Assembly (NCBI RefSeq): GCF_001005315.1
Contig: NZ_LBMG01000022.1
Coordinates: forward strand, 1-38,823
Origin: Kordia jejudonensis
GTDB taxonomy: Bacteria; Bacteroidota; Bacteroidia; Flavobacteriales; Flavobacteriaceae
Length of the DNA: 38,823 nt
Reading direction: 5' to 3'
Of the stretch, positions 61-35,139 are shown piece by piece. The notes below the pieces were generated by a model. That model was given only the letters and a program-made list of their open reading frames with translations, did not search any database and was not told where the DNA came from. Every line of letters starts with the position of its first letter. The first letter of the stretch is position 1. The position numbers and the translations under genes were made by a program.

Positions 61-2550
61 TTATCTAATTCCATTCAAAGTTTTTATCTCTAAGTCATCA
101 ATGCTTTCAGCTTCGGTTGTAAATGTAATTGTAATCGTTTCATTTGGCAACAGATCAAAGAAATTGTCTGAAAAATGTCCTTTGGCTTTTGTATGGAAAA
201 ATATATCTTTTTGTAAAGTGCTGGCTGAAACTGTAATTGTAAAACCTTCTTCGGTTTTTAACACTTCCGTAGAAAGGTCTTGTACGGGTAATTGTAAATC
301 TTTCGGTCGAGCCAGATAAAACAAAGAAGAAACATTTGCCGTATTTGAAGTTAATGTTGCTTTCATCACAATATCTTCAGGATTCGCTTTGAGAGTAGCG
401 ATAGGAGTTTCTACGATTAATGTACTTGCATTTGCTGGAATATTTACATTTTGAATTATATTTTCTATCATGTTCCCTTCAAAATCTAAAAAACTAAGAT
501 TCAATTCGCCTTCCAAAGCCGTTAATTTATCAGAAACAACGTAGGTTTTAATGATGTCATCTTTCACAACCGAAGAAATCAATACATTTTCAAACGACTT
601 TTTAGCTTTGTAATGCAATGCTTTCCAATTTCCCATAAAATCAATACTTGACCATGAAACTACTGGCCAACAATCATTTAATTGCCAATACAAGCTTCCC
701 ATACAATACGGCATGGCGCGACGTTGTGCTTCCATTCCCATGGTTATTCCTTTGGCTTGTGTTAATTGACTCATATATACATAATCATCGCCAGCAGTTG
801 GAACAGGATAATCACGTTCCATATATTCACGAATCAACATAAAACCTCTTGGATGTTTTTGATGCGTAAGGTAACTATCATGATTGATACTGATGCTGTC
901 TTCTCCCGTAAAATAGCGAATAGCTTCATAGGAAGGAAACGATTGAAACCCGAATTCGCTCATAAAACGCGGTACTTTTTGTTCAAAACGTTCAAAAGGT
1001 AATGCATCATGCCAAACGCCCCAATCGTGCGCATCGCCTTCAAATTGAAACTGCGGATTGCCACGTCCGTAACTTGGTGAACTTTCCCAATACTCAATTT
1101 CAGGGTTTAGTTTTGCTACAGTTTCAGGTAGTATATTATCAAAAATTGCCAAATAACTTTCCCAAATTTCTTTCTTTTGCGCTGCTGTTTTATCGGCTTG
1201 CCAGCCCCAACGGTGCCAACCTTCGCTATTTTCGTTATTTCCACACCAAAGCGCAATAGATGTGTAATTTCGCAAGCGCGTTACTTGATCTATAGCTTCT
1301 TGTTGTACGTTTGCTAAAAAGGTTTCATCTCCAGGATACATCGCGCAAGCAAACATAAAATCTTGCCAAATTAAAATTCCTTTTTCATCACACAATTCAT
1401 AAAAAATATCATTTTCATAGATTCCGCCGCCCCAAACACGGAGCATGTTCATATTGGCATCAACAACAGCATTCAGAAGTTTTTCATAATGCGCATCCGT
1501 CACATTGTTTTGCATGCTGTGTTGCGGAATGTAATTGGCACCTTTCATAAATACAGGAATTCCGTTGAGTTCAAAGTAGAAGGTTTCTCCTTTTTCGTCT
1601 TTTTTAGTAATTAGCTTGATTGTACACAGTCCTTTTTTAACTTTTTGCTGTGCTTTTAAATCTTTTCCCTCCAGCAAACTAATGTTGAACTCATACAAAT
1701 ACGGTTCGCCCAAATTGTGCGTCCACCAACGTTTCGGATTCGTAATGTTAAGTTTCGTTGTATACGTATGCGTTCCTTGTTTGGCAGGCTTAGTGATTGA
1801 ATGTTTTGTATTATCAAATTTAACTTCAAACGTGACTTCTTCTACAGCTTCATCCGACGAAATGGTATATTGAACCTCAAATACTGCCAACGAATCTGTT
1901 ATGGTTTCTTGTTTAAAATATACATTGTCTAACTTCATGGTATTCCAAGAAGTTACTTTGATTGGTTTCCAAATTCCTGATGTGTTTAGTGTCGGTCCCC
2001 AATCCCAACCGTACTGAAATTGTGCTTTTCGGGTAAAAACTCTTGGTCCAGCAGGCAATGTATACGCTAGTTTTGCTGCTTCTTTTGCTTCATGAATGCT
2101 TGTTCTTTCAAACTCAATACGTAGCGCATTGGTTGCTTTTGCTACTTTTTTTATGTCAAATTTCCACGTTCGAAACGCATTGTTCGTTTTCCCTAACAAT
2201 GAATCATTTATATAAATAGTTGCATACGTATCCAAACCTTCAAAAGTCAATTCTATATGTGATTTTTCTAAAGTTTCCTCGTCAAGCGAGAATGTTGTCT
2301 GATATTCCCAATCCTTCGTAGTTACCCATTGTACATTGAGCTCGTTTGTTCCCAAAAAAGGATCTTGAATTTTGTTGTGCATTAATAGATCTGCATAAAC
2401 ATTTCCAGGGACTGATGCTTCAAGCCACGTTGTGTCGCTTACTTTTTGCTTAAATTCCCAGTTTTGATGAAGGTAGGAAACGCTTGGTCGGTCATCTTTT
2501 GCACAACTTATCAAGAAAAATACTAGTAAAAGTGTTAAGATTTTATTCAT
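61..2550 (-). CDS. GH2 beta-mannosidase, predicted surface lipoprotein
   Basis: This 829-aa exo-glycosidase is predicted to remove non-reducing beta-mannose, such as the Man-beta-1,4-GlcNAc core of N-glycans. It starts with a lipoprotein signal peptide (lipobox LISC, Cys16) followed by AKDD, a Lys-acidic-acidic pattern like the flavobacterial lipoprotein export signal for surface display. An N-terminal jelly-roll sugar-binding domain (about 25-200) precedes an Ig-like domain (about 205-305) and the TIM barrel (about 310-650). The barrel carries WCGNNE (acid/base Glu440) and FMSEFGFQSFPS (nucleophile Glu532), both typical of GH2 mannosidases rather than galactosidases. Length matches the family. 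Its start codon overlaps the end of cutC by 8 bases, so the two are probably co-transcribed. Family assignment is firm; the N-glycan substrate is inferred from neighbours. Confidence 0.93.
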   Translation of the reverse strand: MNKILTLLLVFFLISCAKDDRPSVSYLHQNWEFKQKVSDTTWLEASVPGNVYADLLMHNKIQDPFLGTNELNVQWVTTKDWEYQTTFSLDEETLEKSHIELTFEGLDTYATIYINDSLLGKTNNAFRTWKFDIKKVAKATNALRIEFERTSIHEAKEAAKLAYTLPAGPRVFTRKAQFQYGWDWGPTLNTSGIWKPIKVTSWNTMKLDNVYFKQETITDSLAVFEVQYTISSDEAVEEVTFEVKFDNTKHSITKPAKQGTHTYTTKLNITNPKRWWTHNLGEPYLYEFNISLLEGKDLKAQQKVKKGLCTIKLITKKDEKGETFYFELNGIPVFMKGANYIPQHSMQNNVTDAHYEKLLNAVVDANMNMLRVWGGGIYENDIFYELCDEKGILIWQDFMFACAMYPGDETFLANVQQEAIDQVTRLRNYTSIALWCGNNENSEGWHRWGWQADKTAAQKKEIWESYLAIFDNILPETVAKLNPEIEYWESSPSYGRGNPQFQFEGDAHDWGVWHDALPFERFEQKVPRFMSEFGFQSFPSYEAIRYFTGEDSISINHDSYLTHQKHPRGFMLIREYMERDYPVPTAGDDYVYMSQLTQAKGITMGMEAQRRAMPYCMGSLYWQLNDCWPVVSWSSIDFMGNWKALHYKAKKSFENVLISSVVKDDIIKTYVVSDKLTALEGELNLSFLDFEGNMIENIIQNVNIPANASTLIVETPIATLKANPEDIVMKATLTSNTANVSSLFYLARPKDLQLPVQDLSTEVLKTEEGFTITVSASTLQKDIFFHTKAKGHFSDNFFDLLPNETITITFTTEAESIDDLEIKTLNGIR

Positions 2551-3277
2551 GGTTCGTATGGATTCGTTCTAAAATCTGTCTTATTTTTTCTTTGTTCGAA
2601 ATGGCAATACGCGTTTCGTTGAATAGGGAAGTACTGTTCATGCTAATTTTTGGAATGTTAATCGATTGATGAATATTCGTCGCCGAACAGTGTATTTCTT
2701 GAAAACCACTTTCTTTGAACAACAGTGCATTTTTTGGGTTGATTCCGCCACCAGGCATGATGATTAATTCGTTTTCAACAAGTTCTTGCAATTCTTGTAG
2801 TAACAGAATTCCTTTTTCGGCAGTTGTTTCCTGTCCAGATGTCAATACACGATTTACGCCTAAAACTGCCAATTGTAATATGGCTTCTTGCGGATCAGGT
2901 GTCCAATCGAAACCACGATGAAAGGTAAATGATAGTGGCTTTGCGAGTTCAATTAATTCCTGTGTGCGTTCTTGATCTATCGTTTGATCTTGCAACAACA
3001 CACCAGATACAATACCGGCGCAACCTAATTCTTTACACAAAAGTATATTCTCTTTCATGATTTCAAATTCTTCACGTGAATAAGTAAAATCGCCACTTCT
3101 CGGACGAATTAATACATGTACAGGAATTTCAAGATCATTCATAACTTTTTTGAGCAATCCGTACGAAGGTGTAATGCCGCCAATGGCCAATTCGGAACAC
3201 AATTCAACACGATGTGCCCCTGCTTTTTGAGCGTTGATAGCAGATTCATAAGAGTTTGCACAGATTTCTAGTAGCAT
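2543..3277 (-). CDS. cutC: CutC family protein
   Basis: A 244-aa TIM-barrel protein of the CutC family (copper homeostasis by annotation; the biochemical role is poorly established). Family features include the opening MLLEICANSYESA, the CSELAIGGITPSYG segment and a late PGGGI loop. The frame is open 39 codons further upstream (to 3394), but that stretch is low-complexity and has no family match. I therefore place the start at the ATG at 3275-3277, directly before the conserved first strand and giving the usual family length. The 3' end overlaps the beta-mannosidase start by 8 bases, implying translational coupling. CutC homologues sit near glycosidases in other Bacteroidota, so a carbohydrate-linked role is possible, but this is inference. 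Confidence 0.88.
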   Translation of the reverse strand: MLLEICANSYESAINAQKAGAHRVELCSELAIGGITPSYGLLKKVMNDLEIPVHVLIRPRSGDFTYSREEFEIMKENILLCKELGCAGIVSGVLLQDQTIDQERTQELIELAKPLSFTFHRGFDWTPDPQEAILQLAVLGVNRVLTSGQETTAEKGILLLQELQELVENELIIMPGGGINPKNALLFKESGFQEIHCSATNIHQSINIPKISMNSTSLFNETRIAISNKEKIRQILERIHTNHE

Positions 3278-3502
3278 GCGTTGTTTGGTTATTTGGTATG
3301 TATTATGAATGCTTTTGTATGTTGAGTTTTCAACTTCATTCTCGTTCTCAAATATATGATTTATTCTCGTTTTCTGTAATGAGATGCTCTTCAATTCCTT
3401 TTACAAATTTGAGGTGTTTTAGTTGGTATGTTGATTAGTTTATATAAACTATCAATAGAAAATGAAGCATTAGGTTGTTTGATCAAGTTATTTTAAACAT
3501 GA

Positions 3503-4927
3503 TTAAAAACTAAAAACCAACGGAATGATAAACTGAAAAAATAATACTAAGAGCACAATTGAGATGATATTTAGTAGAAATCCTGCGCGTGCCATTTGTG
3601 CAACTTTTACATGACCGCTTGCAAATACGATGGCATTTGGCGGTGTAGACATGGGCAACATAAATGCGCAACTAGAAGCCATGGTTACTGGAATAAGAAT
3701 GTGTAAAAGATCAATTTGTAATCCGATAGCAACGCCCGCAACCATTGGAGCAAAAATAGCGATCAACGCCACATTGCTCATCAATTCTGTCATAAATAAC
3801 ATGACTGCAATTAGAATGCTACAAATTATAAGTATGCTTAATGTTGTGTTATCACTGACGGTTGTTCCGATGAGGTCAATGATTCCGACATTAGAAAGAC
3901 TGCTTGCAAGCGCCAATCCGCCACCGAATAAGAGTAGAATTCCCCAAGGCAACCGTTTGGTATCTTCCCATGCTAAAATGTTGGTGTTTTTGTGTGTTGC
4001 CGTAAAACATGCAAAAGCCGCAACAAGACTAATCGTTGTGTCTGATAGAGCTAGATTTGGAAATAGACTGTTTAGATAGTTTTTTCCTATCCATGCTAAA
4101 ATGGCTGCGATAAAAATAACCATCACAATGATTTCTGAGGTGCTTATTTTTCCTAGTTTTTCCATTTCACGATCAATGATTTCTTTCGATTGTTCAAAGG
4201 AAGCTAGATGATTTGGATACATCACTTTCGTCAAAATGTAGTAGATAAAAAACAGCATGATAATCGCAAAAGGAACACCTACAATCATCCATTTTACAAA
4301 GGAAATACTATAACCGTATTCGCTTTCCATAAAACCAGCTAGTACAATATTTGGCGGTGTGCCAATTAAGGTTGCAATACCACCAACATTGGCAGCGTAG
4401 GCAATTCCTAACATGATACTTAGTGCAAAATTTCTATCTTTTTTGGTAAAACCGTCTTCATCGTGAATCAATAATTCGATCACGGAATAGGCAATAGGAA
4501 GCATCACTACCGTTGTTGCCGTATTGCTAATCCACATACTTAAAAAAGCAGTTGCCAGCATGAATCCTAAAATGATTTTGTTTGGACTTGTGCCCGTAAG
4601 TTTTATGATTCCTAAAGCGACACGTCTGTGTAAGTTTACTTTTTCTAAGGCGAGTGCTAAGACAAATCCGCCAAAAAATAAAAATATGATAGGATGACCG
4701 TAATTGACGGCAACTTCTTTGATCGGCATAATTCCCAATAGCGGGTAAAAGGTAAGTGGAATTAGCGCAGTGATAGAAATAGAAACCGTTTCGGTAATCC
4801 ACCATAATATCATCCACAATGCAACTCCAATTACTTTGTCTGCTTCAGGACTAATGAGTTCAAAAGGCGCAAAAAAGAATAATAAACAGAGTAGAGGACC
4901 TAAAACAAGAATTATTTTTTTCTTCAT
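3503..4927 (-). CDS. DASS-family sodium/carboxylate symporter (SLC13-like)
   Basis: A 474-aa inner-membrane transporter of the divalent anion:sodium symporter family, expected to import di- or tricarboxylates (or sulfate) with Na+. It shows the duplicated family architecture. Each half has an Asn-containing binding motif: SNTATT with TPPN in the first, and SNVALIAIF with TPPNAIVFASG in the second. The latter is the family signature near the C-terminus. There are about 11-13 hydrophobic segments. The ATG start is followed directly by a MKKK hydrophobic first helix. It is the first gene of the leftward group DASS-cutC-mannosidase, with 225 bp before cutC, so it may be transcribed separately. 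The substrate cannot be read from sequence. Confidence 0.9.
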   Translation of the reverse strand: MKKKIILVLGPLLCLLFFFAPFELISPEADKVIGVALWMILWWITETVSISITALIPLTFYPLLGIMPIKEVAVNYGHPIIFLFFGGFVLALALEKVNLHRRVALGIIKLTGTSPNKIILGFMLATAFLSMWISNTATTVVMLPIAYSVIELLIHDEDGFTKKDRNFALSIMLGIAYAANVGGIATLIGTPPNIVLAGFMESEYGYSISFVKWMIVGVPFAIIMLFFIYYILTKVMYPNHLASFEQSKEIIDREMEKLGKISTSEIIVMVIFIAAILAWIGKNYLNSLFPNLALSDTTISLVAAFACFTATHKNTNILAWEDTKRLPWGILLLFGGGLALASSLSNVGIIDLIGTTVSDNTTLSILIICSILIAVMLFMTELMSNVALIAIFAPMVAGVAIGLQIDLLHILIPVTMASSCAFMLPMSTPPNAIVFASGHVKVAQMARAGFLLNIISIVLLVLFFQFIIPLVFSF

Positions 4928-5034
4928 AGTTAGTATTCAGATGCTCAACAGCATTATTATTCCTTAGCGTTATTGGAACTGCAAAATATGAAATTAAAAT
5001 TTCTTTGGGTATTTTTTTAGCGAAGTAATTTTAG

Positions 5035-5265
5035 TTAAAACAAACGAAGTCCTGTTAACTTTTGAACCTCAATAACATCCTTATTAAAAACAAAAAGACG
5101 ATATCTTGTATTTCCAATTCTGTTATAACTTGGAATGTCGTTTTGCCAAAATTCAATAGTATTTTCGTTCAAAAGCGCTATCATATCCGTAAGTTTTTCT
5201 TTAGAATATGTTGCAATTACTAAATGTGGATGTTTGATGCTATCTGCGATAAATGTATCGTGCAA
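5035..5265 (-). CDS. small hypothetical ORF, possible remnant
   Basis: An open frame of 76 codons starting at TTG, with no ATG until codon 28. I do not recognise the product. Composition is normal for a small soluble protein (no membrane helix, no signal peptide), and the motif FWQNDIPSYNRIGNTRYRLFVFNKD reads like genuine protein. Its 5' end overlaps the divergent toxin-like ORF on the other strand (5224-5265), so at least one of the two starts is wrong or one reading frame is a decayed fragment. It lies in an island of short ORFs between glycosidase genes. Confidence 0.3.
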   Translation of the reverse strand: MHDTFIADSIKHPHLVIATYSKEKLTDMIALLNENTIEFWQNDIPSYNRIGNTRYRLFVFNKDVIEVQKLTGLRLF

Positions 5266-5661
5266 TTTTTATATTTGAAGAATCAAGATGCAAGAAAAGA
5301 TATTTACAATGATATTAATGAAGGAAAAGCATTCATTATATTTGGAGGAACAGCAGGAACAGAAATTCCCTCAGTTATGTTCTCTAATAAATTGAAAAAA
5401 ATAGCTTCTAAAATTGATGCAAAAACCCAAACAGAAATCGACCGCTTACTTAAACAAGTAGTAAATGGTAATATGAATCCTGGAATTGGAAATAAGATAA
5501 TTCAGAATGATGGTAAAGTTATATTTAATAAATTTAGATCAAAAACCGGAAGAGTTTATCGGAGAGAAGGCGTAGAAGGAGATGTAGAAACACTATATTA
5601 TCCAACCAAGAAAGGGCAAACTGAAGCAGTAAATGCAATAATTAAACAACATGGATTTTAA
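5224..5661 (+). pseudogene. toxin-tip-like fragment (polymorphic toxin C-terminus)
   Basis: An open frame of 145 codons. Its last 100 or so residues (NGNMNPGIGNK, then FRSKTGRVYRREG and a short beta-strand/helix ending) resemble the small RNase-type C-terminal tips of bacterial polymorphic toxins (RelE/colicin-like fold); this is pattern recognition only. No Rhs, RHS-repeat or other delivery region precedes it: an in-frame stop lies just before the first ATG, and the first 20 or so residues are antisense to another ORF. It therefore looks like an orphan cassette or broken gene rather than a complete toxin. The downstream gene starts 11 bases before its stop, as expected of a toxin-immunity pair. 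It could instead be a functional small protein of unknown role. Confidence 0.4.
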
Positions 5662-5959
5662 TAAAAAAAATAATTATACTATTAGTAGAAACAGTTGTAG
5701 TGAGGACATTTTTAACGGAAATGAAGATATTTTTGTTACGCTTAAAAATGGTAAACAATATGTAGCTACTTTTTTTACCTATAAAAACGTAGAAAATATA
5801 AGAAAGAAAAATCAAAAAACAGGTGAAGAATTAAACGGTAAATATTTTTGGAGTTCGGATATGATACTCATAGAAGATTTGAGAATAGATACAATTAATT
5901 CTGTAATAGATCATTTGTTAGAACAAGATTATTTTTTTGATATTTTCAGTGAAGTTTAA
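5651..5959 (+). CDS. immunity-like small acidic protein
   Basis: A 102-aa soluble protein with no signal peptide or membrane segment. It is rich in Asp/Glu and aromatics. The core (KNGKQYVATFFTYKNVENIRKK, then GKYFWSSDMILIEDL and a C-terminal amphipathic helix) resembles small proteins found just downstream of polymorphic-toxin tips in Bacteroidota, and so a candidate immunity protein. It starts inside the end of the toxin-like ORF (11-base overlap) on the same strand, which fits the usual toxin-then-immunity order. Function is inferred from context. Nothing shows a direct interaction, and the toxin partner may be inactive. Confidence 0.5.
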   Translation: MDFNKKNNYTISRNSCSEDIFNGNEDIFVTLKNGKQYVATFFTYKNVENIRKKNQKTGEELNGKYFWSSDMILIEDLRIDTINSVIDHLLEQDYFFDIFSEV

Positions 5960-6072
5960 TATTTTTTGAGTTATAAAATCTCATAAATAAAATAATCATT
6001 CAATAAAACTGCTAGGAAACCCAACACCCAAAAGCAAAGCAACTCAATATCTAATACCCAACAACAAAAATC

Positions 6073-8355
6073 CTACTTCACTATAATTTCATCTAAAAAA
6101 GTCCATGCTTTGTTTCCCGCACCTTGCAAACCATCTTGAATGGTGCCGTAGTTTGGAATAAAAATTTCGATATGTTTGGTTGTGATTTCTTCAATTTGAA
6201 ACGTGTGTGGAACAAGTGTAGTGTCTGCAGTTGTGACTTGATTTACTTGATGTAACGTTCTGCCATCTTCTTCGTTTATATAACTAATTCCAATTTCCTT
6301 TGGCGCATAAATCCATTGTCCATTAGCATTGTAAAATCGTGTAGACACAGAACTGATTTTTGTGGGTTTATCAAATTCAATAGTGATTGTTACATCTTTA
6401 CCCCAAAAACCCAACCATTCTTTGTCGCCAAAACGCGTATTACTTCCCGAAACGCCGTTAACCAATCCTTTTGAACCGCTTCCTGCATAGGCTTTATGTG
6501 GTTTGGGTTCAAGTGAAATAGTTGCACCAACCGCAGCATGTTTATTAAAAATAAGCTCAAAATCACGTCCGAGTTTTTGTTTATTATCAAAGACCGCCGC
6601 TTTTAACACGGTTGAACCTTCAATAGGTAAGTAAGGTGTATATTTTTCGGATTGTAAATTTGGAGAAGATCCGTCAGTAGTGAAACGAATGGTTTTATCT
6701 CTAATAATGGTTTGTAAATCAAATACTAACTGATTATTCCGCGTAACAACGTTTCCTTCAATCTCATACAAATGATTGGCATAGTTGACATTCAAAGTAT
6801 CCAATCGTTTGTGAAAATGTGACAAACGATACGTAAAATCTTGATAATCGCGTTGTCGTGGATTCGACCAATTCACTTCTGCCATCGCAATCGCTCTTGG
6901 AAACGCCATATATTCAACTTGCTCAGGCGTTGTAATGTATTCCGTCCACACATTTCCTTGTGCACCCAAAACATGTGTTGCTTCTTCCGTAGAAAGTTCT
7001 TTGGGAATCGGATCAAAATAATATACTTTTTCCAGTGGCAAATAACCACCAATAGCCAACGGTTCATCTTCATTATCCGATTGATAATAATCAAAATACG
7101 CATGTGATGTTGGAGTCATAATCACGTTGTGTCCAGCTTTTGCAGCTTCAACAGCGCCATTTGTACCACGCCAAGACATTACAGTTGCATTTGGTGCCAA
7201 ACCGCCTTCCAAAATTTCATCCCAACCAATAATTTGCTTACCTTTGCTGTTAATATATTTTTCCATACGTGTAATAAAATAACTCTGCAAACCATGTTCG
7301 TCTTTCAAATCTTCTTTTTTGATGAGTTCCTGACAATGTTCGCAAGCTTTCCAACGCGTTTTTGGTGCTTCATCGCCACCAATATGAATGTACTTGGCAG
7401 GAAAAAGTGGCATGACTTCATCTAAAACATCTTCTAAAAATGTAAAGGTTTCCTCTTTTGGACAATAAATATCTTCAAAAACGCCCCATTTGGTCGCTAC
7501 TTTTACAGTTGTTCCTGTACAACCCAAATTTGGATACGCGGCAATGGCAGCTTGCGAATGTCCAGGCATTTCTATTTCAGGAATTACCGTAACATGTCGT
7601 TCAGAAGCATACTGTACAATCTCTTTGATTTCTTCCTGTGTATAAAATCCACCATACTTTTTTCCATCAAATTGTTGTGGTGTATCATTGTAATGTCCGA
7701 TCAAAGTTTCATCACGATACGCAGCAATATTTTGCAATTCAGGATATTTTTTAATCTCAATTCGCCAACCTTGATCGTCCGTCAAATGCCAATGAAACGT
7801 ATTCATCTTTAACATTGCCATGAGATCAATATATTTTTTGATAAATGCTACCGAAAATAAATGGCGTGATACATCCAAGTGCATTCCTCTGTACGTAAAG
7901 CGTGGCGCATCTTTTATATATAAATTTCTAAGATGAACGGAATTAGTTTCTACAGTAGCGGGTAACAATTGTCGAAAGGTTTGAAACGCATAAAAAGCGC
8001 CTTTTTCAGTTTTTGCTTTGATGATTATCTGAGAAGTATCAACCAAAATTTCATATCCTTCTTCATTTTCGATGGTTTCATCGTATTGAAAAGTTATCGA
8101 ATTTCTATCAGGTTTACTATGCTTTATCAATTGAAATCCCAATGTTTCTTCTACGTACTTATTAAAAAAATGTGCAGTAGTTTGAAGTTCGCTGTCATAA
8201 TGAAAAGAAACATTTTTATCCAAAATAAAAACACCTTCTTGGATTGTAAATTCATTGGGTATAGGTATAATATGTGGTCTAATGGGAAATTGTGGTTCTG
8301 TACAACCAATGAAACAGAGGAAAATTATGAATTTGAAAAAAATAGTACTTCTCAT
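6073..8355 (-). CDS. GH20 beta-N-acetylhexosaminidase, lipoprotein
   Basis: This 760-aa exo-enzyme removes terminal GlcNAc/GalNAc by substrate-assisted catalysis. The signal peptide ends in a lipobox (FIGC, Cys18), so the protein is lipid-anchored in the periplasm or outer membrane. An N-terminal alpha/beta domain (about 25-150, GH20b type) precedes the catalytic TIM barrel (about 153-500). Visible motifs are WHLTDDQGWRIEI, IPEIEMPGHS and HIGGDEAPK with the catalytic Asp328-Glu329 pair. After it come a chitobiase-type beta-sandwich (about 540-615, FTTDGSSPN) and a discoidin-like carbohydrate-binding domain (about 625-760). It is transcribed divergently from the GH92 gene with only 39 bp between start codons. 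In this setting it would cleave the chitobiose GlcNAc of N-glycans, but chitin oligomers are an equally allowed substrate. Confidence 0.93.
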   Translation of the reverse strand: MRSTIFFKFIIFLCFIGCTEPQFPIRPHIIPIPNEFTIQEGVFILDKNVSFHYDSELQTTAHFFNKYVEETLGFQLIKHSKPDRNSITFQYDETIENEEGYEILVDTSQIIIKAKTEKGAFYAFQTFRQLLPATVETNSVHLRNLYIKDAPRFTYRGMHLDVSRHLFSVAFIKKYIDLMAMLKMNTFHWHLTDDQGWRIEIKKYPELQNIAAYRDETLIGHYNDTPQQFDGKKYGGFYTQEEIKEIVQYASERHVTVIPEIEMPGHSQAAIAAYPNLGCTGTTVKVATKWGVFEDIYCPKEETFTFLEDVLDEVMPLFPAKYIHIGGDEAPKTRWKACEHCQELIKKEDLKDEHGLQSYFITRMEKYINSKGKQIIGWDEILEGGLAPNATVMSWRGTNGAVEAAKAGHNVIMTPTSHAYFDYYQSDNEDEPLAIGGYLPLEKVYYFDPIPKELSTEEATHVLGAQGNVWTEYITTPEQVEYMAFPRAIAMAEVNWSNPRQRDYQDFTYRLSHFHKRLDTLNVNYANHLYEIEGNVVTRNNQLVFDLQTIIRDKTIRFTTDGSSPNLQSEKYTPYLPIEGSTVLKAAVFDNKQKLGRDFELIFNKHAAVGATISLEPKPHKAYAGSGSKGLVNGVSGSNTRFGDKEWLGFWGKDVTITIEFDKPTKISSVSTRFYNANGQWIYAPKEIGISYINEEDGRTLHQVNQVTTADTTLVPHTFQIEEITTKHIEIFIPNYGTIQDGLQGAGNKAWTFLDEIIVK

Positions 8356-8394
8356 TTTAGTATATTAGATGCCATAAATTTAGCAATCTATTTA

Positions 8395-11346
8395 ATGAAA
8401 CTTCAATACAGCTTCTTTTTTATTGTCATATGGCTTTTTTTTAGCTGTAATTCTGACGAAAAAATACAAATTGTACAAAAAAATACCGTACTAATCACAT
8501 ATGTAAATCCATTTATTGGAACAGGCGGACACGGACATACATATCCAGGAGCAACCATGCCGTTTGGAATGATGCAACTAAGTCCAGATACGCGTTTGGA
8601 TGGTTGGGATGGCTGTTCAGGATATCACTATTCAGATGAATATATCTATGGTTTTTCGCATACACATTTAAGCGGAACAGGCGTTTCCGATTATGGCGAT
8701 ATTTTACTCATGCCAACCAACGAAGTAAACTTCAACAATGGCGCTGATGGAAAAAAAGGCTATCGCGCACATTTTTCGCATGACAATGAAATTGCGGAAG
8801 CTGGTTATTACAAAGTACAACTAGACAGTACAAATATTACAGTAGAATTGACCGTTTCTGAACGAAGTGGCATCCATAAATACACATTTCCTTCTGCGGA
8901 AAATCAAGTAGTGATGTTAGACTTAGTGCATCGTGATAAAGTATTAGATGCCAAAATTGATAAAATTTCGAATACTGAAATTGTAGGCTATCGTTTTTCG
9001 GAAGCATGGGCAAGTGATCAACGTTTGTTCTATGTCATACAAACATCGCATCCTTTTGATGATATCTTACAATCGCCACCAAAACAAGGAATGCCAGGCG
9101 CGCGACGATCTGCTTTGACATTTAAAAATCCAAACAATGAACCAGTTATCATTAAAGTTGGTATCTCAGCAGTTGATATCGCTGGGGCGCGAAAAAACTT
9201 GGAACAAGAAATAGGCGAGAAGTCCTTTAATGCGATAAAACAACAAGCACAAGACACTTGGGAAAGGCAATTGGAAAAAATTGTGATTGAAAGTGATGAC
9301 TTAGACTATAAAACAAATTTTTATACAGCGTTATATCATACGATGCTAGCGCCAAATATCTATCAAGATGTAGATGGACGGTATCGTGATATGGATTTAG
9401 AAATTCATCAATCGAATGAACATACACATTACACCGTTTTTTCTTTGTGGGATACGTATCGCGCAGCACATCCGTTGTATACGATTATTGAACAAGAACG
9501 TACAAACGATTTTATTAAAACCTTCATTAAGAAATATGAATCTGGCGGAATCCTGCCAATTTGGGATTTATCAGCCAACTATACAGGTTGTATGATTGGT
9601 TATCATGCTGTTCCTGTAATTTCGGATGCGTATCTAAAAGGCATTCGCGATTATGACGTGGACAAAGCGTTTGAAGCGATGAAACACAGTGCCACACGTG
9701 ATAAATTAGGCTTAGAATATTACAAAAAATTAGGATTCATTCCTGTAGAAAAAGAATCAGAATCGGTATCTAAAACCTTAGAATACGCTTATGACGATTG
9801 GACAATTGCACAAATGGCAAAAGCAATGGGAAAAACGGACGATTACGAAACTTTTGTCAAACGTGCGCAATTCTACAAAAATGTATTCGATCCAGAAACA
9901 CAATTCATGCGTGGACGTTTTAGAAACACGTGGTTTGCACCTTTTGATCCGTATGAAGTGAATTTCAATTACACAGAAGCCAACTCATGGCAATACAGTT
10001 TTTATGTACCGCAAGATATTTCAGGTTTCATAGAATTGTTAGGCGGAAAAGACAAATTAGAAGCACAATTGGACAAGCTTTTCACAGCAAAACAAGAAAC
10101 TTCAGGACGCAATCAGGCAGATATTACAGGATTAATTGGTCAATATGCGCACGGAAACGAGCCAAGTCATCACATGGCATATTTGTACAATTTCATCAAT
10201 AAACCTTCAAAAACGCAGGAATATGTGCATCAAATCTTAACCACGTTATACAAAAACGAACCAGATGGCGTTTCAGGAAATGAAGACTGTGGTCAAATGA
10301 GTGCTTGGTATGTATTAAGCAGTTTAGGATTTTACTCGGTAACGCCAGGAACGAACGAATATATTATTGGAACGCCATTATTCGATAAAGCAACAATAAA
10401 TCTAGAGAATGGAAAAACGTTTACGCTTGTCGCGAATCATCTCTCGAAAGATAATATATATATCAAATCCATAAGTTTAAACGGGAAAAATCATCCGAAA
10501 TCATTCATCAAGCATGAAGATATTATGAATGGTGGCAATTTAGTTTTTGAAATGACCAACGTTGCCACAGATTGGGGAACGCAAAACGAAAACATTCCTG
10601 TTACAACAATTACCGAACATACAATTGTATCGCCGCCGTTTATAGCGAAAGGCGATATTGCGTTCAAGGGAGAAACGGAAGTAACATTACAAACAGTTGA
10701 TAAAGAAGCTACGATTTTTTACAAATTGATCGATAACAACAAAGCTGAAAAAGTATCTTTTATCGAATATACAGCACCATTTAAAATAGCAGAAAAAAGT
10801 TCGCTAATGGTGTATGCTCAACGTGGAGATCAAAAAAGTGCAGAAATCGAAACGACCTTTTTCAAAATTGATCCAAACTTAAAAATTAAACTAGAAACGG
10901 AATATGCCAACCAATACAATGCTGGCGGACAAAACGCACTGATTGATGGAATTTTCGGTACAGAAGATTTCCGCACAGGAACGTGGCAAGGCTATTTTGA
11001 TAAAGATTTGATTGCCACTGTAGATTTAGGAAAAATAAAAGATGTTTATTCCATAAGCGCCAACTTTTTACAAGATCAAAAATCGTGGATATTTTTACCA
11101 ACAGAAGTAGAAGTATTTATTTCCACCGATGGAAAGAAATTTACAAGTGTGCAAAAGTTAGTACACGAAAAACCAAGACCTAAGGAAAAACCAAGTATTC
11201 AGAAAGTAGGAACAGCATTTAAGACCAAGAAAGCACGCTACGTAAAAATAGTTGCAAAAAAACTAGGTAAATTACCAGAATGGCATTTGGGATACAAACA
11301 TGACGGACGTTCATGGTTGTTTGTAGATGAAATAGAAATACGATAA
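8395..11346 (+). CDS. GH92 exo-alpha-mannosidase, predicted surface lipoprotein
   Basis: A 983-aa calcium-dependent exo-alpha-mannosidase family protein. Family signatures include NPFIGTGGHGHTYPGA near the N-terminus, GNEPSHHMAYLYN, and GQMSAWYVLSSLGFY in the (alpha/alpha)6 domain (about 290-720). After these come a chitobiase-type Ig-like domain (about 760-830) and an F5/8-type discoidin domain (about 845-983), the same C-terminal pair as in the adjacent GH20. I set the start at 8395 because MKLQYSFFF begins a signal peptide with lipobox FFSC (Cys18), followed by NSDEK, an acidic patch like a surface-export signal. The frame is open 142 codons further upstream, but that part is antisense to the GH20 gene. 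The glycosylasparaginase follows after 18 bp, so they are probably co-transcribed. Linkage preference (1,2, 1,3 or 1,6) cannot be told. Confidence 0.93.
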   Translation: MKLQYSFFFIVIWLFFSCNSDEKIQIVQKNTVLITYVNPFIGTGGHGHTYPGATMPFGMMQLSPDTRLDGWDGCSGYHYSDEYIYGFSHTHLSGTGVSDYGDILLMPTNEVNFNNGADGKKGYRAHFSHDNEIAEAGYYKVQLDSTNITVELTVSERSGIHKYTFPSAENQVVMLDLVHRDKVLDAKIDKISNTEIVGYRFSEAWASDQRLFYVIQTSHPFDDILQSPPKQGMPGARRSALTFKNPNNEPVIIKVGISAVDIAGARKNLEQEIGEKSFNAIKQQAQDTWERQLEKIVIESDDLDYKTNFYTALYHTMLAPNIYQDVDGRYRDMDLEIHQSNEHTHYTVFSLWDTYRAAHPLYTIIEQERTNDFIKTFIKKYESGGILPIWDLSANYTGCMIGYHAVPVISDAYLKGIRDYDVDKAFEAMKHSATRDKLGLEYYKKLGFIPVEKESESVSKTLEYAYDDWTIAQMAKAMGKTDDYETFVKRAQFYKNVFDPETQFMRGRFRNTWFAPFDPYEVNFNYTEANSWQYSFYVPQDISGFIELLGGKDKLEAQLDKLFTAKQETSGRNQADITGLIGQYAHGNEPSHHMAYLYNFINKPSKTQEYVHQILTTLYKNEPDGVSGNEDCGQMSAWYVLSSLGFYSVTPGTNEYIIGTPLFDKATINLENGKTFTLVANHLSKDNIYIKSISLNGKNHPKSFIKHEDIMNGGNLVFEMTNVATDWGTQNENIPVTTITEHTIVSPPFIAKGDIAFKGETEVTLQTVDKEATIFYKLIDNNKAEKVSFIEYTAPFKIAEKSSLMVYAQRGDQKSAEIETTFFKIDPNLKIKLETEYANQYNAGGQNALIDGIFGTEDFRTGTWQGYFDKDLIATVDLGKIKDVYSISANFLQDQKSWIFLPTEVEVFISTDGKKFTSVQKLVHEKPRPKEKPSIQKVGTAFKTKKARYVKIVAKKLGKLPEWHLGYKHDGRSWLFVDEIEIR

Positions 11347-11364
11347 TTTTTAAATTCAACTGAT

Positions 11365-12378
11365 TTGAAAAGAAGAAAATTTATACAAAATACAATCTTG
11401 TCTGGCTTAGGTTTATCCGTAGCAACAGCATTAACAGCTTGTGCGGACGAAACTAAAATGACTACTATAACTGATGAAACTAAAGCGGTTTCCACAGGAA
11501 AACCTGTCATTCCAATGGTAATTGCTACGTGGAATGTACCCAACGCAACTAAAAAAGCTTGGGAAGTATTACAAGCTGGAAAATCTGCTTTAGATGCTGT
11601 AGAACAAGGTGTCATGGTGGAAGAGGCAGACGTAAACAATCAGTCGGTTGGAAAAGGCGGATTGCCCGATAGAGACGGAAATGTAACCTTAGACGCTTGC
11701 ATCATGAACAAAGAAGGTAATTATGGCGCAGTCGTTTGTATCGAAAATATAAAACATCCAATATCGGTTGCCCGAAAAGTAATGGAAGATACACCGCATG
11801 TACTATTAGCTGGAAACGGTGCGAAGCAATTTGCAATAGAAAGTGGTTTTACACCAGAAAATCTATTGACGGAAGCTTCAAAGAAAGCTTGGGAAGAATG
11901 GAAAGTAAAATCTGAATACAAACCTGTGATCAATGTGGAAAATCATGATACGATAGGAATGTTAGCCATTGATAAAAACGGAGATATTTCGGGCGCATGT
12001 ACCACAAGCGGATTATCATACAAAATGCAAGGTCGCGTGGGCGATTCGGCAATTATAGGTTCAGGATTATTTATTGACAATGAAATTGGCGGTGCAACGG
12101 CTACAGGAATGGGCGAAGAAGTCTTAAAAACTGTTGGAAGTTTCCTCATTGTAGAATTAATGCGACAAGGGAAATCGCCACAAGAAGCCTGTGAAGAAGC
12201 GGTACAACGCGTTGTAAAGAAAAGTCCCAATTACAAAGATTTTCAAGTGGGATACATTGCTGTAAACAAACAAGGAGAAACAGGCGCGTATTGTATTCAC
12301 GAATGGTTTAATTATACGACGTATCAAAATGATGAAAACAAAAATCACAAAGCGGATTATTACGATAAGAAAAAGTAG
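11365..12378 (+). CDS. N4-(beta-N-acetylglucosaminyl)-L-asparaginase family hydrolase
   Basis: A 337-aa Ntn hydrolase of the glycosylasparaginase family, which splits the GlcNAc-Asn bond left after N-glycan trimming. The precursor self-cleaves before the threonine of HDTIGML (Thr196), producing alpha and beta chains; GRVGDSAIIGSG and CTTSG are the substrate-binding loops. The start is a TTG at 11365, chosen because it gives a twin-arginine leader (KRRKFIQ) followed by a hydrophobic segment and lipobox LTAC (Cys26); no upstream ATG is available in frame. The protein is therefore exported folded and probably lipid-anchored. It lies 18 bp downstream of GH92, and its role completes the N-glycan pathway suggested by the neighbours. 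A plain L-asparaginase or isoaspartyl peptidase is less likely given the loop sequences and context. Confidence 0.9.
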   Translation: MKRRKFIQNTILSGLGLSVATALTACADETKMTTITDETKAVSTGKPVIPMVIATWNVPNATKKAWEVLQAGKSALDAVEQGVMVEEADVNNQSVGKGGLPDRDGNVTLDACIMNKEGNYGAVVCIENIKHPISVARKVMEDTPHVLLAGNGAKQFAIESGFTPENLLTEASKKAWEEWKVKSEYKPVINVENHDTIGMLAIDKNGDISGACTTSGLSYKMQGRVGDSAIIGSGLFIDNEIGGATATGMGEEVLKTVGSFLIVELMRQGKSPQEACEEAVQRVVKKSPNYKDFQVGYIAVNKQGETGAYCIHEWFNYTTYQNDENKNHKADYYDKKK

Positions 12379-12537
12379 TTTTGGGTTTTAAATTTTAAAT
12401 GCTAAATGCTAAATTTTGAATGTTGAAATATACTTTCGAATTGACGAATTGATGAATAACGAATAACGAATAACGAATAAACAATTTTGAAATTATAAAT
12501 GTTAAATGCTAAATTTTAAATGTAAAAAAGTAAATTT

Positions 12538-12601
12538 CAACTAAACAACTAAACAACTAAACAACTAAACAACTAAACAACTAAACAACTAAACAACTAA
12601 A
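12538..12601 (+). repeat. tandem array, 8 x CAACTAAA
   Basis: Eight perfect head-to-tail copies of the 8-bp unit CAACTAAA, with no G on this strand. It is the second of four arrays in the composite locus upstream of the FHS symporter. Confidence 0.95.
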
Positions 12602-12851
12602 CAAAAAGGAAATTATAAATGTTGAATGCTAAATGTAAAATATTAAATTAAGAAAGATACTTTTTAAGACCCAAGACCCAAGACCCAAGACCAAAAGAAA
12701 CTAGTATTGAGATGTCAGTATTGAGTAGTGAGAATTATATTCAAAACAACAAACAACTAATAACGAATAACGAATAACGAATAACGAATAACGAAGTTAA
12801 AATGTTGAATGCTACATGTTGAATTTTGAATTGAAAAGAATACTTTTTACA

Positions 12852-12935
12852 ATCAACCATCAACCATCAACCATCAACCATCAACCATCAACCATCAACC
12901 ATCAACCATCAACCATCAACCATCAACCATCAACC
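12852..12935 (+). repeat. tandem array, 12 x ATCAACC
   Basis: Twelve perfect copies of the 7-bp unit ATCAACC, then a variant copy (AGCAACC) and a short AAC tract up to the symporter start. A 7-bp unit shifts frame and spacing with every copy gained or lost, and the array lies 32 bp before the start codon, within the likely promoter or leader. Confidence 0.95.
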
Positions 12936-12967
12936 AGCAACCAACCAACAACAACAACAAAAACCAT

Positions 12968-14284
12968 ATGTCAACAACTACGAAAAACTCGTACAAAAGT
13001 GCTTTTATATTTGTAACCACTTTATTTTTTCTGTGGGGATTTATTACCGTTTTGGTCGATCCGTTAATTCCACGACTCAAAGAAGTCTTTGAACTCACTT
13101 ATTTTCAGTCAGGAATGATCCAATTTGCGTTTTTTGGTGCGTATTTAGCGCTGTCGATTCCTGCAGGATTTCTATTGTCTAAAATTGGTTACAAAAAAGG
13201 AATCATTCTCGGTTTAATCATCATGGGTTCTGGATGTTTGCTATTTTACCCAGCAGCTTCTTCCCGAATTTATATTGTATTTTTATTAGCTGTATTTATA
13301 TTGGCAAGCGGCATGACCATTTTGCAAGTTGCTGCCAATCCGTATGTAGCCGCGTTAGGTTCTGAAGAAGGCGCTAGTAGCCGATTAAATTTAGCACAAG
13401 CGTTCAATTCACTAGGAACTGCCATTGCACCCGCAATTGGAGCCATGTTTATCTTGAGCGATAAAATAAAAACCAGTGACGAAATTACCGCATTGAGTAC
13501 TTCTGATAAAGAAATTTACTATGCGGCAGAAGCATCAAATGTGCAAATACCATTCGTGGCAATTGCTTTATTTACCTTGTTATTAGCCGTAATTTTCGCG
13601 TATGTAAAACTGCCCAAAATATTGCAAAAAGCACCAAAAGGCGGCTATATTTCACTTTTAAATTCGCCTTCCTTACTCATGGGCGCTATTGGAATTTTCG
13701 TTTACGTCGGAGCAGAAGTTGCCATCGGAAGTTACTTAACGAATTACTTCATCGATATGAATCTAGCGGAAGCCATTGTCAACAATTCAACGATGAAAAG
13801 GATTTCCGAATTGATTGTAAGTGCCGATCTTTCCACACTAGATCCGAAAGCCATTGTAGGAGCATTTGTAACGTTTTATTGGCTCGGCGCCATGATTGGA
13901 CGATTTATTGGTGCGTATTTAACCAAAATCATTGATCCCGCAAAAGTGTTAATTGGTTTTGCGCTTGGTGCATTGATAATGATAATAATTTCTATTAATA
14001 GTGTAGGATTTATCTCAATGTGGAGTATATTAGCAGTCGGATTATTTAATTCTATTATGTTTCCGACGATCTTTACTTTAGCATTAGGCGGATTGGACGA
14101 TTTAAAACCACAAGCATCAGGTATTTTGTGTACCATGATTGTTGGTGGCGCAGTCATTCCACCATTGTACGGACTGTTGACCGATAATATTGGCTTTAAA
14201 ACAGCATTACTTTTAGTATTTGCTTGTTATACCTACATTATGATTTACGGATTTGTAAAACAAAGAAAGAAAGTAGTAGCATAA
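12968..14284 (+). CDS. FHS-family sugar/H+ symporter (NagP/FucP/GluP-like)
   Basis: A 438-aa major facilitator with 12 predicted membrane helices in two bundles of six. The N-terminal stretch LWGFITVLVDPLIPRLKEVF, the FFGAYLALSIPAG helix and LQVAANPYV place it in the fucose/glucose/GlcNAc:H+ symporter group rather than the generic sugar porters. It would bring a released monosaccharide across the inner membrane. Given neighbouring GH20, GH92, GH2 and glycosylasparaginase genes, GlcNAc or mannose is the most likely cargo (inference). The ATG at 12968 lies at the end of a long G-free repeat leader. Copy-number change in the arrays could alter expression. The substrate cannot be decided from sequence. 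Confidence 0.88.
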   Translation: MSTTTKNSYKSAFIFVTTLFFLWGFITVLVDPLIPRLKEVFELTYFQSGMIQFAFFGAYLALSIPAGFLLSKIGYKKGIILGLIIMGSGCLLFYPAASSRIYIVFLLAVFILASGMTILQVAANPYVAALGSEEGASSRLNLAQAFNSLGTAIAPAIGAMFILSDKIKTSDEITALSTSDKEIYYAAEASNVQIPFVAIALFTLLLAVIFAYVKLPKILQKAPKGGYISLLNSPSLLMGAIGIFVYVGAEVAIGSYLTNYFIDMNLAEAIVNNSTMKRISELIVSADLSTLDPKAIVGAFVTFYWLGAMIGRFIGAYLTKIIDPAKVLIGFALGALIMIIISINSVGFISMWSILAVGLFNSIMFPTIFTLALGGLDDLKPQASGILCTMIVGGAVIPPLYGLLTDNIGFKTALLLVFACYTYIMIYGFVKQRKKVVA

Positions 14285-23025: not shown

Positions 23026-23946
23026 ATGGCAACAAATAAAGTAAAAGATCCAGGACTTGGCGAATCGACCATTACATCTGCAAAACGCATTGTAAACAAA
23101 GATGGTACATTCAACATAAAACATCTGAATGGAAAAGCTGGAATTTCTGCGTTATACGCATATTTGGTAGACATCAGCTGGACACGCTTTTTTTGTTTGG
23201 TATTTTTAGCATATACAGTATTAAATGTATTCTTTGCAAGCATTTATGTAGCTATTGGTGTTGAATATATTGGTGTAACTCCTGTATCATTTTTAAAAGA
23301 TTTCATCAAAGCTTTTTTCTTCTCTTCGCAAACGGTTACAACCTTGGGTTATGGAGCAATGGCGCCAAAAGGAATATTGGCAGGAATTGTTTCTAGCATT
23401 CACGCATTAACAGGATTGCTTAGTTTTTCATTCGTTACAGGATTGTTATATGGACGTTTCTCTAAACCAAAAGCATCTATTGAATTCAGTAATAACATCA
23501 TTTACAGAGATTTCAAAGAAGGAAAAGCGTTAATGTTTCGGTTGATCAATAGTAAAACGGATGTAATGATCAATCCGCGAATTGTAGTTACACTCGCAAT
23601 TACTGAAGAAGATGCAAAATATGGATATCGCCGCAATTTCTATCAATTAGAATTGGAAAGAGATCAAATCACCTACTTGCCAACCACTTGGACTTTAGTT
23701 CATGAAATTACCGAAGATTCTCCGTTGGCAAAATTTTCCAAAGAAGAACTCCAAAATCTCAATGGAGAATTTCTCATCATGATTACCTATTATGATCAAG
23801 CATTCAACGAAGAAGTATACAAATTACATTCCTACACATTTGAAGAACTTACTATGGATGTTGCGTTTGAAAAAGCTTTCTACTTTGACGAAGAAGGATA
23901 CACTGTGTTAGATCATCATAAATTGAGCAATACGAAGAAACTATAG
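23026..23946 (+). CDS. inward-rectifier (Kir-type) potassium channel
   Basis: A 306-aa bacterial Kir homologue. After about 45 cytoplasmic residues come TM1 (about 50-73), a pore loop with the selectivity filter TVTTLGYG (about 104-111) and TM2 (about 118-145). The C-terminal 155 residues form the Ig-like beta-sandwich that gates Kir channels (e.g. RLINSKTDVMINPRIVV, then LTTWTLVHEI-type strands and a final FDEEG..VLDHH). It would conduct K+ in the inner membrane as a tetramer. It is co-directional with dapA at 7 bp. Metabolic linkage to dapA is not evident; the grouping may be purely positional. Confidence 0.92.
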   Translation: MATNKVKDPGLGESTITSAKRIVNKDGTFNIKHLNGKAGISALYAYLVDISWTRFFCLVFLAYTVLNVFFASIYVAIGVEYIGVTPVSFLKDFIKAFFFSSQTVTTLGYGAMAPKGILAGIVSSIHALTGLLSFSFVTGLLYGRFSKPKASIEFSNNIIYRDFKEGKALMFRLINSKTDVMINPRIVVTLAITEEDAKYGYRRNFYQLELERDQITYLPTTWTLVHEITEDSPLAKFSKEELQNLNGEFLIMITYYDQAFNEEVYKLHSYTFEELTMDVAFEKAFYFDEEGYTVLDHHKLSNTKKL

Positions 23947-24202: not shown

Positions 24203-24218
24203 CAAGATGTTTAAAAAT

Positions 24219-25013
24219 ATGAAGAAGTTTCTTTACATACTATTAGTAGCGATCACGTTGATCTCGTGTGGTGAGTACCAAAATGCTTTAAAGTCTGAGG
24301 ACACAAAGGTAAAATACGACTTAGCGGAACGCTTATACAAAGAAGGTAAATTCAAAAAGTCAAGCCGTCTATTTGAACAAATAGTTCCTAAATACAGAGG
24401 AAAGCCTCAAGGAGAACGTGTTACATACATGTATGCACGATCGTTATTTGAAGTAGAACAATACTTTATTTCAGCCTATCAATTTGAGCGTTTTGCAAGA
24501 TCATATCCAAAAAGTGATAGCGTGCAAAAAGCATTATTCTTTGAAGCGAAAAGCTATTACATGGAATCGCCTCGTTACAGTATAGATCAGACTGAAACAA
24601 AGAAAGCAATCAATAAATTGCAATCTTTTATCAACGGATATGCTAATTCTGAAGATTTACCAGAAGCTAATAAAATGGTAAGTGAGTTGACAACGAAGCT
24701 TGAGAAAAAAGCATATGAAATAGCAAAGCAATACAATACAATTGCAGATTACAAAGCATCTATCAAAGCTACTGAGAATTTTCTTTCGGACTATCCAGGA
24801 ACTACTTTTAGAGAAGATGCAATGTTTTTAAAATTAGATTCATCATACAAATTGGCTTCAAAGAGTTTCATTTCATTAATGAAAGAACGTTTTGATGTCG
24901 CAGCGTCTGCATACCGAACGCTGATAAAATTTTATCCTGAATCGAAATACAGAGAAGAAGCCGACCAAATGATGGCTTCGATAACACAAGAATTAGAAAA
25001 ACTTTCAAAATAA
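24219..25013 (+). CDS. bamD: outer membrane protein assembly factor BamD
   Basis: A 264-aa outer-membrane lipoprotein of the BAM complex, needed to insert beta-barrel proteins. The signal peptide MKKFLYILLVAITLISC ends in a lipobox (LISC), followed by five tetratricopeptide-like helical repeats (AERLYKEGKFKKSSRLFEQIV, YMYARSLFEVEQYFISAYQFERF and so on to the C-terminus). I prefer the ATG at 24219 over one four codons upstream because it gives a standard signal peptide and the -7 box lies at 24195-24202. Length fits the Bacteroidota family. It begins the conserved group bamD-rpoZ-coaBC-DUF4835. Confidence 0.93.
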   Translation: MKKFLYILLVAITLISCGEYQNALKSEDTKVKYDLAERLYKEGKFKKSSRLFEQIVPKYRGKPQGERVTYMYARSLFEVEQYFISAYQFERFARSYPKSDSVQKALFFEAKSYYMESPRYSIDQTETKKAINKLQSFINGYANSEDLPEANKMVSELTTKLEKKAYEIAKQYNTIADYKASIKATENFLSDYPGTTFREDAMFLKLDSSYKLASKSFISLMKERFDVAASAYRTLIKFYPESKYREEADQMMASITQELEKLSK

Positions 25014-25022
25014 CCCTGAATT

Positions 25023-32122: not shown

Positions 32123-32264
32123 TGTAAAAAAAAAAGGTGAAAAAAACGCATTAAAAGGTTTCTTGTCGTTTAAAATGCTCGTTTCGTCGACATTTTCGTG
32201 GTTGATCCAAAAAAAATGTAGTTCTTTCGCTGATATTCAACTAACTAACTAAAAACTAACTTTT

Positions 32265-34865: not shown

Positions 34866-34891
34866 TCTTATTTAAAACATATAATATCATT

Positions 34892-34922
34892 AAAAGCTGT
34901 TCTTCATTGGACAGCTTTTTTT
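34892..34922 (+). terminator. rho-independent terminator after copy 1
   Basis: AAAAGCTGTTC (34892-34902) pairs with GGACAGCTTTT (34909-34919) around a six-base loop with one T-G wobble, followed by a T-run to 34922. It lies 27 bases after the stop codon and insulates copy 1 from copy 2. Confidence 0.85.
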
Positions 34923-35139
34923 GTTTCTATAATATAACACAATATAAAAATGGACAATAGTAAGTAATGTCTATTTTTTTAATTGATTATATTGGTAAAT
35001 TGAGTATATTTTCTTTCATATGCTATTGAAAAAAACCTCTTTTTAAAATACAATAAACACAGATCACTTTATCCCCTTGATTAAATGTATTTTATATCTA
35101 AAATAATTCTTATATTTATCCCACTAACTAACTAAAACG

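Follow-up and report, generated by a model that had tools for sequence, protein, structure and literature searches.

Genes of the locus

The window analyzed here is one entire contig of 38,823 bases (NZ_LBMG01000022.1) in the 5.36-Mb draft genome of Kordia jejudonensis, which consists of 217 contigs. Positions 61 to 14,284 hold a cluster of predicted glycosidases together with a glycosylasparaginase (AGA), a sugar carrier, and a member of the CutC family. The reading that we favor, with moderate confidence, is that this locus is a lysosome-like, exo-acting module for the salvage of asparagine-linked glycans in which CutC is a cytosolic amino-sugar enzyme partner and not a copper protein. The cluster comprises the following features.

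61-2550, minus strand: GH2 exo-beta-mannosidase with a lipoprotein-like N-terminus (MNKILTLLLVFFLISC; signal judged by eye) and Pfam mannosidase Ig domains
2543-3277, minus strand: CutC (PF03932, 218.9 bits), likely a cytosolic TIM barrel, no signal peptide by eye
3503-4927, minus strand: DASS sodium-coupled anion symporter (TIGR00785, 312 bits)
5224-5959, plus strand: two small orphan open reading frames (ORFs) that overlap, placed between the symporter and GH20 genes and matching no Pfam family at E <= 1
6073-8355, minus strand: GH20 beta-N-acetylhexosaminidase (PF00728, 427 bits) with a lipoprotein-like N-terminus (..FIGC; by eye)
8395-11346, plus strand: GH92 alpha-mannosidase (PF07971, 626 bits) with a C-terminal F5/8-type domain and a lipoprotein-like N-terminus (..LFFSC; by eye)
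11365-12378, plus strand: glycosylasparaginase (AGA; structure matches and alignment) with a twin-arginine-like signal containing Cys26
12968-14284, plus strand: FHS-family sugar:H+ symporter (gluP subfamily, TIGR01272)

An earlier note on this DNA had named five families here (GH2, GH20, GH92, AGA, and FHS), and Pfam, TIGRFAM-type models, and structure matches find all of them; CutC, the DASS symporter, and the two orphan ORFs went without mention in it. The best solved relative of the GH2 protein is the beta-mannosidase 2je8 (691 bits), the GH20 protein matches the beta-hexosaminidase structure 6q63 (605 bits), and the GH92 protein matches 6f8z (652 bits) and, second best, 7zgm (631 bits). 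The FHS carrier passes the cut-off of the gluP subfamily model (262.6 versus 202.55) and falls below that of the NagP equivalog (180.5 versus 625); the fucP equivalog cut-off is also not reached. GH2, GH20, GH92, and AGA each have a signal-like N-terminal stretch that ends at a cysteine and CutC has none, as judged by eye and not by a predictor.

The genes form two divergent groups that point in opposite directions, away from a gap between 8355 and 8395. GH20, then the symporter, CutC, and GH2 make up the minus-strand group, and GH92, AGA, and FHS make up the plus-strand group. GH92 probably starts at 8395, not at the listed TTG at 7969, which places it 39 bases from the divergent GH20 gene. 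The end of CutC overlaps the start of GH2 by eight bases, and ligA begins 32 bases after the end of the FHS gene. Because only 60 bases separate the GH2 gene from the contig edge, part of the cluster may be missing there. No SusC/SusD pair adjoins the cluster among the scanned window proteins, the contig ending 60 bases past GH2. The two orphan ORFs are possibly a toxin-immunity remnant, which is a guess.

Compared with solved glycosylasparaginases, the matched one of which we take to be the Elizabethkingia enzyme, the AGA protein reaches 382 bits, whereas isoaspartyl peptidase/L-asparaginase gives 126 bits and a further relative 128. The beta chains of the solved enzymes align from AGA residues 196-197, and the nucleophile Thr196 is invariant in 13 aligned AGA sequences. 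Judged by its sequence, the window AGA is a true glycosylasparaginase (EC 3.5.1.26).

Recurrence of the gene set and linkage of CutC to AGA

The locus is a recurring flavobacterial gene module, and its genes are read as belonging together because they are conserved in relatives, not from the window alone. The comparison used the 80 named loci centered on AGA that rank best by similarity among 583 confirmed ones; such loci can be cut by contig ends. The closest named match among them is the AGA of Kordia algicida OT-1 (88% identity); ligA (94%) and other downstream genes are also common to that locus and the window. Near AGA in the 80 loci are GH92 (45), CutC (47), an FHS-like carrier (34, counting carriers of 26-38% identity), GH20 (19), and GH2 (14). 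In the 53 loci of at least 20.9 kb, the corresponding counts are GH92 28, CutC 35, FHS 24, GH20 14, and GH2 10. The earlier note had called for a search for the same gene group in related genomes, and the full set plus CutC is indeed found in 13 of the 80 loci; three have none of GH92, CutC, FHS, GH20, and GH2, and 29 have CutC without any of the other four. The FHS match is at least 60% identical in nine of the 13 full-set loci and only 32-37% in the others (L076, L085, L089, and L145). In a further set of 20 relatives, AGA has GH92 nearby in 13, FHS in 12, CutC in 8, GH20 in 7, and GH2 in 4, and it stands alone in three. Neither the DASS symporter nor either orphan ORF occurs in any of the 80 named loci. 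The symporter had been considered as an importer of the aspartate that AGA releases, and this idea was dropped because none of those loci carries DASS.

The linkage of AGA to CutC extends across the Bacteroidota. In a phylum sample of 395 genomes, AGA is found in 165 at E <= 1e-70 (149 among the matches listed) and CutC in 123. Both are listed for 102 genomes, which contain 52 pairs within 2.5 kb spread over ten families. CutC follows AGA on the same strand in 44 of these pairs, from nine families (f1, f2, f3, f4, f5, f8, f24, f31, and f39); seven others are divergent (f1), and one has CutC before AGA on the same strand (f10). Four more pairs lie within 20 kb, for a total of 56 of 102. The chance expectation within 2.5 kb is approximately 0.13 of 102, assuming a 4-Mb genome and with no correction for genome relatedness.

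We also inspected 20 further loci from other families that were chosen for close AGA and CutC, identifying genes by eye or with queries from the window. In three of them (L148-L150) CutC is followed by GH2, with one small ORF between them in L148, and GH20 is in the stretch. Another (L167) has the order AGA, CutC, GH2 on one strand, and L157 has GH20 and a NagB-type gene next to the pair. The most elaborate arrangement (L155) reads receptor, SusD-like, PNGase F-like, AGA, CutC, GH92, two fucosidases, and alpha-galactosidase. In several loci (e.g., L151 and L162), no glycan genes were recognized nearby by these means, which did not include a Pfam scan.

The earlier note had contrasted the cluster with classical polysaccharide utilization loci. 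Its observation that SusC/SusD, GH18, and GH85 are missing stands for the Pfam-scanned proteins of the window, with ORFs including 24207-25349, 26557-27447, and 29268-30083 outside that scan. Queried with eight receptor ORFs and six SusD ORFs from the window's genome, the 80 named loci contain a SusC homolog in one and a SusD homolog in one at E <= 1e-20, and SusC-type receptors in five at 1e-8. The idea of a different kind of pathway does not hold up, however, since AGA and CutC occur inside the SusC/SusD locus L155, so that the lack of SusC/SusD here is a local arrangement.

The phylum-wide sample is a stronger test of this linkage than a sample of the window's own family, the Flavobacteriaceae. 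In 249 genomes of that family, with AGA taken from the best 150 of 217 genomes, both genes are listed in 121. They lie within 15 kb in 71 and within 500 bases in 55, and 52 of those 55 pairs are divergent. Neighborhoods were compared for 99 AGA loci from ORFs with gene labels assigned by eye. The context classes are defined by housekeeping genes, which are absent from the other classes by construction. Outside the most common context, 15 of 28 loci have CutC near AGA: 0 of 2 beside ligA, 6 of 11 in a yidC-pyrG-carB context, and 9 of 15 elsewhere. Some AGA loci (L042, L051, L058, L069, L074, and others) have beside them another gene of the asparaginase type, 33-36% to AGA, near cyanophycin-synthetase-like and cyanophycinase-like genes, again labeled by eye.

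CutC genes on plasmids provide a view beyond the phylum. The window CutC matches 63 plasmid records, of which the best 60 were used, and 26 regions (19 annotated and 7 not) were chosen from these by hand and not at random. The sample leaves out most Enterobacteria, Listeria, Enterococcus faecalis, Fusobacterium, and others, and its counts stand without a matched control set. Eleven of the 19 annotated regions (L173, L174, L177, L178, L179, L180, L189, L190, L191, L195, and L196) contain explicit amino-sugar or N-glycan genes; three of these are from Hymenobacter and eight from Alphaproteobacteria. In L174, AGA and CutC are inside a SusC/D-type locus. CutC is near NagA, NagB, MurQ, or a hexosaminidase in 8 of the 15 annotated regions from outside the Bacteroidota. 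A fucosidase and a ROK kinase are near CutC on an Alkalihalophilus pseudofirmus plasmid (L197), and three regions (L188, L192, and L193) have only a sugar-kinase-type gene. In L197, CutC lies between leucyl aminopeptidase and dipeptide ABC transporter genes on one side and the alpha-L-fucosidase and ROK kinase on the other, which would fit uptake of small glycopeptides.

Eight unannotated plasmid regions were searched with tblastn, seven selected by CutC and one (L176) by its AGA match. Amino-sugar or N-glycan genes are found in six (L176 and L181-L185), a ROK kinase and an asparaginase-type gene (33%) in L170, and only a weak ROK match in L186. L176, from a Novosphingobium sp. RL4 plasmid, is an alphaproteobacterial version of the module, with NagA, a SIS isomerase, CutC, GH92, and a 49% AGA homolog within 10 kb (3026-12828). 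Among the seven plasmid AGAs of at least 48% identity, CutC adjoins in three from Hymenobacter and is about 6 kb away in the one from Novosphingobium.

The CutC protein, proposed mechanism, and alternatives

The CutC assignment itself is clear: the protein scores 218.9 versus a Pfam PF03932 cut-off of 23.3, and its top 19 Foldseek matches are CutC structures. The predicted model (pLDDT 93) reads as a TIM barrel. The next Foldseek matches are PdxS, HisA/PriA, MJ1099, and PdxJ, with TM-scores of 0.5-0.7, and these proteins handle phosphorylated sugars or similar metabolites. Such scores indicate a shared barrel and are no proof of CutC function. Ten diverse CutC proteins keep E4, R23, E25, C27, R58, R60, H120, R121, D124, S147, and H196, among others. 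The only invariant cysteine in these ten is C27, and C6 and C27 are invariant in 21 closer sequences. The pattern of invariant residues in the alignment resembles an active site more than a set of copper ligands. The copper sensitivity of E. coli cutC mutants has been attributed entirely to the MicL small RNA, according to the part of PMC6538781 consulted. The fold, the invariant residues, and this account of the copper phenotype together lead us to read CutC as an amino-sugar enzyme that acts on N-acetylglucosamine (GlcNAc) or a phosphorylated derivative.

On balance, we slightly favor a general form of this proposal in which CutC, conserved from bacteria to humans, is an amino-sugar catabolic TIM barrel of the phosphosugar type that acts on GlcNAc or a GlcNAc-derived phosphate after AGA, hexosaminidase, or MurQ routes, the AGA-CutC pair being its frequent operon-like form in Bacteroidota. 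A role restricted to 1-amino-GlcNAc was considered less likely, as CutC also occurs near nag and mur genes without AGA.

In the proposed mechanism, the enzymes would be exo-acting and anchored in the cell envelope. GH92 would take off alpha-mannose, GH2 the core beta-mannose, and GH20 GlcNAc. AGA would split the leftover GlcNAc-Asn into aspartate and 1-amino-GlcNAc, the latter giving GlcNAc and ammonia. Following the rule for such enzymes, AGA should not act on an intact glycoprotein, and proteolysis would have to come first. The FHS carrier would take in a freed sugar, and CutC would act in the cytosol, most likely on GlcNAc or a phosphorylated derivative.

Genome-wide searches qualify this scheme. 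With one Pfam model each for GH18 and GH85, the only endo-enzyme models used, neither family has a match at E <= 1 anywhere in the genome, and six SusD matches occur outside the window. On another contig (C138), a PNGase F homolog (L065, 366 bits to 1pgs) adjoins a TonB receptor and a glucose/sorbosone dehydrogenase gene. By eye, it keeps the residues aligned to D60, E118, and E206, whose roles in PNGase F we presume to be those generally assigned to them. The PNGases marked by E118 form a group that does not tolerate core alpha-1,3-fucose, according to the part of PMC9522356 consulted. The earlier claim that the AGA route makes a release enzyme unnecessary is weakened by this homolog and by the presence of a PNGase F-like gene, AGA, and CutC together in L155, which is from another family. 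GH92 is present in one copy. NagA models give only weak, partial matches in the whole genome, none over the curated cut-off, and the NagB equivalog model has no match; in 14 control genomes, the NagA model exceeds its cut-off in seven and the NagB model in four. With one GH92, no NagA over the cut-off, and no NagB, the description "complete" is not sustained. Nor is "ending in import", as the FHS family does not tell which sugar is carried. What survives of the original idea is an exo-acting set, recurrent in relatives, that is suited to stripping N-glycans to GlcNAc-Asn and splitting it.

Several observations weigh against the salvage module with a CutC partner. With no NagA over the cut-off and no NagB, the scheme does not account for what becomes of GlcNAc. 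In 29 of the 47 CutC-bearing named loci, none of GH92, GH20, GH2, and FHS is present, and in K. algicida (L066) FHS is the sole member of the set that lies within 10 kb of AGA. A genome of the same genus (G179) keeps AGA, FHS, GH92, and GH20 together and has the CutC-GH2 pair on another contig. Nearness is lacking in 46 of the 102 phylum-sample genomes with both genes, which lie on different contigs in 36 and far apart on one contig in 10, and some genomes (G028 and others) have AGA and no CutC match. In the Flavobacteriaceae, 71 of the 99 AGA loci share an old chromosomal neighborhood of polA and further housekeeping genes, with polA in 55 and CutC in 36, and part of the adjacency is thus old chromosomal order. 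Because chromosomal inertia holds for this part, adjacency there is not used as proof. On plasmids, CutC regions from Parabacteroides, Cetobacterium, Klebsiella, and Enterococcus gallinarum (L171, L172, L187, and L194) have no sugar link, a Sphingomonas CutC is about 180 kb from AGA, two Persicobacter records with AGA have CutC only on another replicon, and the AGA region of Enterococcus gilvus has no CutC. In G179, a metallopeptidase-like gene follows the CutC-GH2 pair (L039 and L147).

In one alternative, which we regard as unlikely though worth serious attention, the locus is an ordinary accessory exoglycosidase cluster. PNGase F would release glycans elsewhere, the oligosaccharides would be imported, and the cluster would trim them, leaving AGA for minor glyco-asparagine and CutC as a passenger of slow rearrangement. 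The PNGase F homolog and the separation of CutC-GH2 from AGA in G179 are consistent with it, as are the ORF-based counts of polA (55) and CutC (51) near AGA in the 99 Flavobacteriaceae loci. Slow rearrangement fits poorly, however, with the same AGA-CutC order in nine families, its reversal in a tenth, and the divergent form in Flavobacteriaceae. It also does not account for the eight alphaproteobacterial plasmid regions with CutC near nag, mur, or hexosaminidase genes and no AGA, and a block that includes CutC recurs in the yidC-pyrG-carB context (6 of 11 such loci).

It is improbable that CutC is a metal-handling protein that serves neighboring enzymes or guards against copper. The family name and a solved relative deposited with calcium, according to its title, point in this direction, but C27 is the only cysteine invariant in the ten diverse proteins, in which acidic, arginine, and histidine residues are invariant, the linked neighbors found are sugar genes, and the mutant phenotype has another attribution in the part of PMC6538781 consulted. 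More improbable still is that the AGA protein is an Ntn hydrolase for asparagine, isoaspartyl-peptide, or cyanophycin breakdown that stands beside glycosidases incidentally. Such a role would agree with a cphA-like gene (labeled by eye) in the flanks of 20 of the 99 loci and with the second asparaginase-type gene, 33-36% similar, in several loci, but the 382 versus 126 bits and the presence of GH92 near AGA in 45 of the 80 named loci weigh against it.

If the salvage module with its CutC partner is real, a conserved protein whose copper label is doubtful would gain a testable amino-sugar role. This would matter for the use of N-glycans by bacteria, for the recycling of cell-wall sugars, and, by way of the human relative, for GlcNAc salvage. 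Marine flavobacteria would have a compact, lysosome-like recovery of carbon and nitrogen from glycoproteins.

Elsewhere in the window, positions 23026-23946 encode an inward-rectifier potassium channel homolog (PF17655 and PF01007). The three large proteins encoded at positions 30392-38823 contain FG-GAP/ASPIC, MAM, and fn3 domains as well as C-terminal sorting domains, and the last ORF runs to the contig end without a stop.

Comparison with known systems

In animal lysosomes, alpha-mannosidase, beta-mannosidase, beta-hexosaminidase, and glycosylasparaginase act stepwise on Asn-linked glycoproteins. The cluster has the same four predicted activities and would use the same order of steps. Its alpha-mannosidase belongs to another family, however, and it adds lipoprotein-like enzymes, an importer, and CutC.

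Bacterial systems for N-glycans share parts of this arrangement; the statements about each source here refer to the portions of it that were consulted. The alf-2 genes of Lactobacillus casei for Fuc-GlcNAc-Asn (PMC6960285) similarly combine MFS import with a glycosylasparaginase that yields Asp and 1-amino-GlcNAc, but that AGA has no signal peptide, a fucosidase is present, and the Discussion names neither a mannosidase nor CutC. In Capnocytophaga canimorsus (PMC3128124), flavobacterial N-glycan use is likewise thought to be finished by periplasmic exoglycosidases. Its Gpd system differs in having a SusC/D-like complex, the endo-enzyme GpdG, and exo-enzymes with separate locus numbers, and "asparaginase" does not occur in the text. 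The plant N-glycan loci of Bacteroides massiliensis (PMC9522356) also join a PNGase to GH92, and the structure 7zgm mentioned there is the second-best match of the window GH92, but they are PNGase-led and their main text does not contain "asparaginase". The same word is missing from a review of bacterial N-glycan breakdown (PMC10154615). In the open literature of PubMed Central, no paper was found that joins CutC with glycosylasparaginase, no proposal of a sugar role for CutC was found in the part of that literature consulted, and the term glycosylasparaginase does not occur in the related papers among the matches listed.

The closest likeness involving CutC is in the nix N-glycan cluster of Xanthomonas (PMC5700972 and PMC6718126), which also has alpha-mannosidase, beta-mannosidase, and hexosaminidase. 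A cutC gene (XAC3091) is reported in this cluster and an asparaginase gene (XAC3092) near it, and their locus numbers suggest that the two adjoin. The nix cluster differs in its TonB receptor, fucosidase, and galactosidase, and its cutC was read as copper resistance (PMC6718126). The enzymes of the Kordia locus all come from known families, and their grouping with CutC is the new element.

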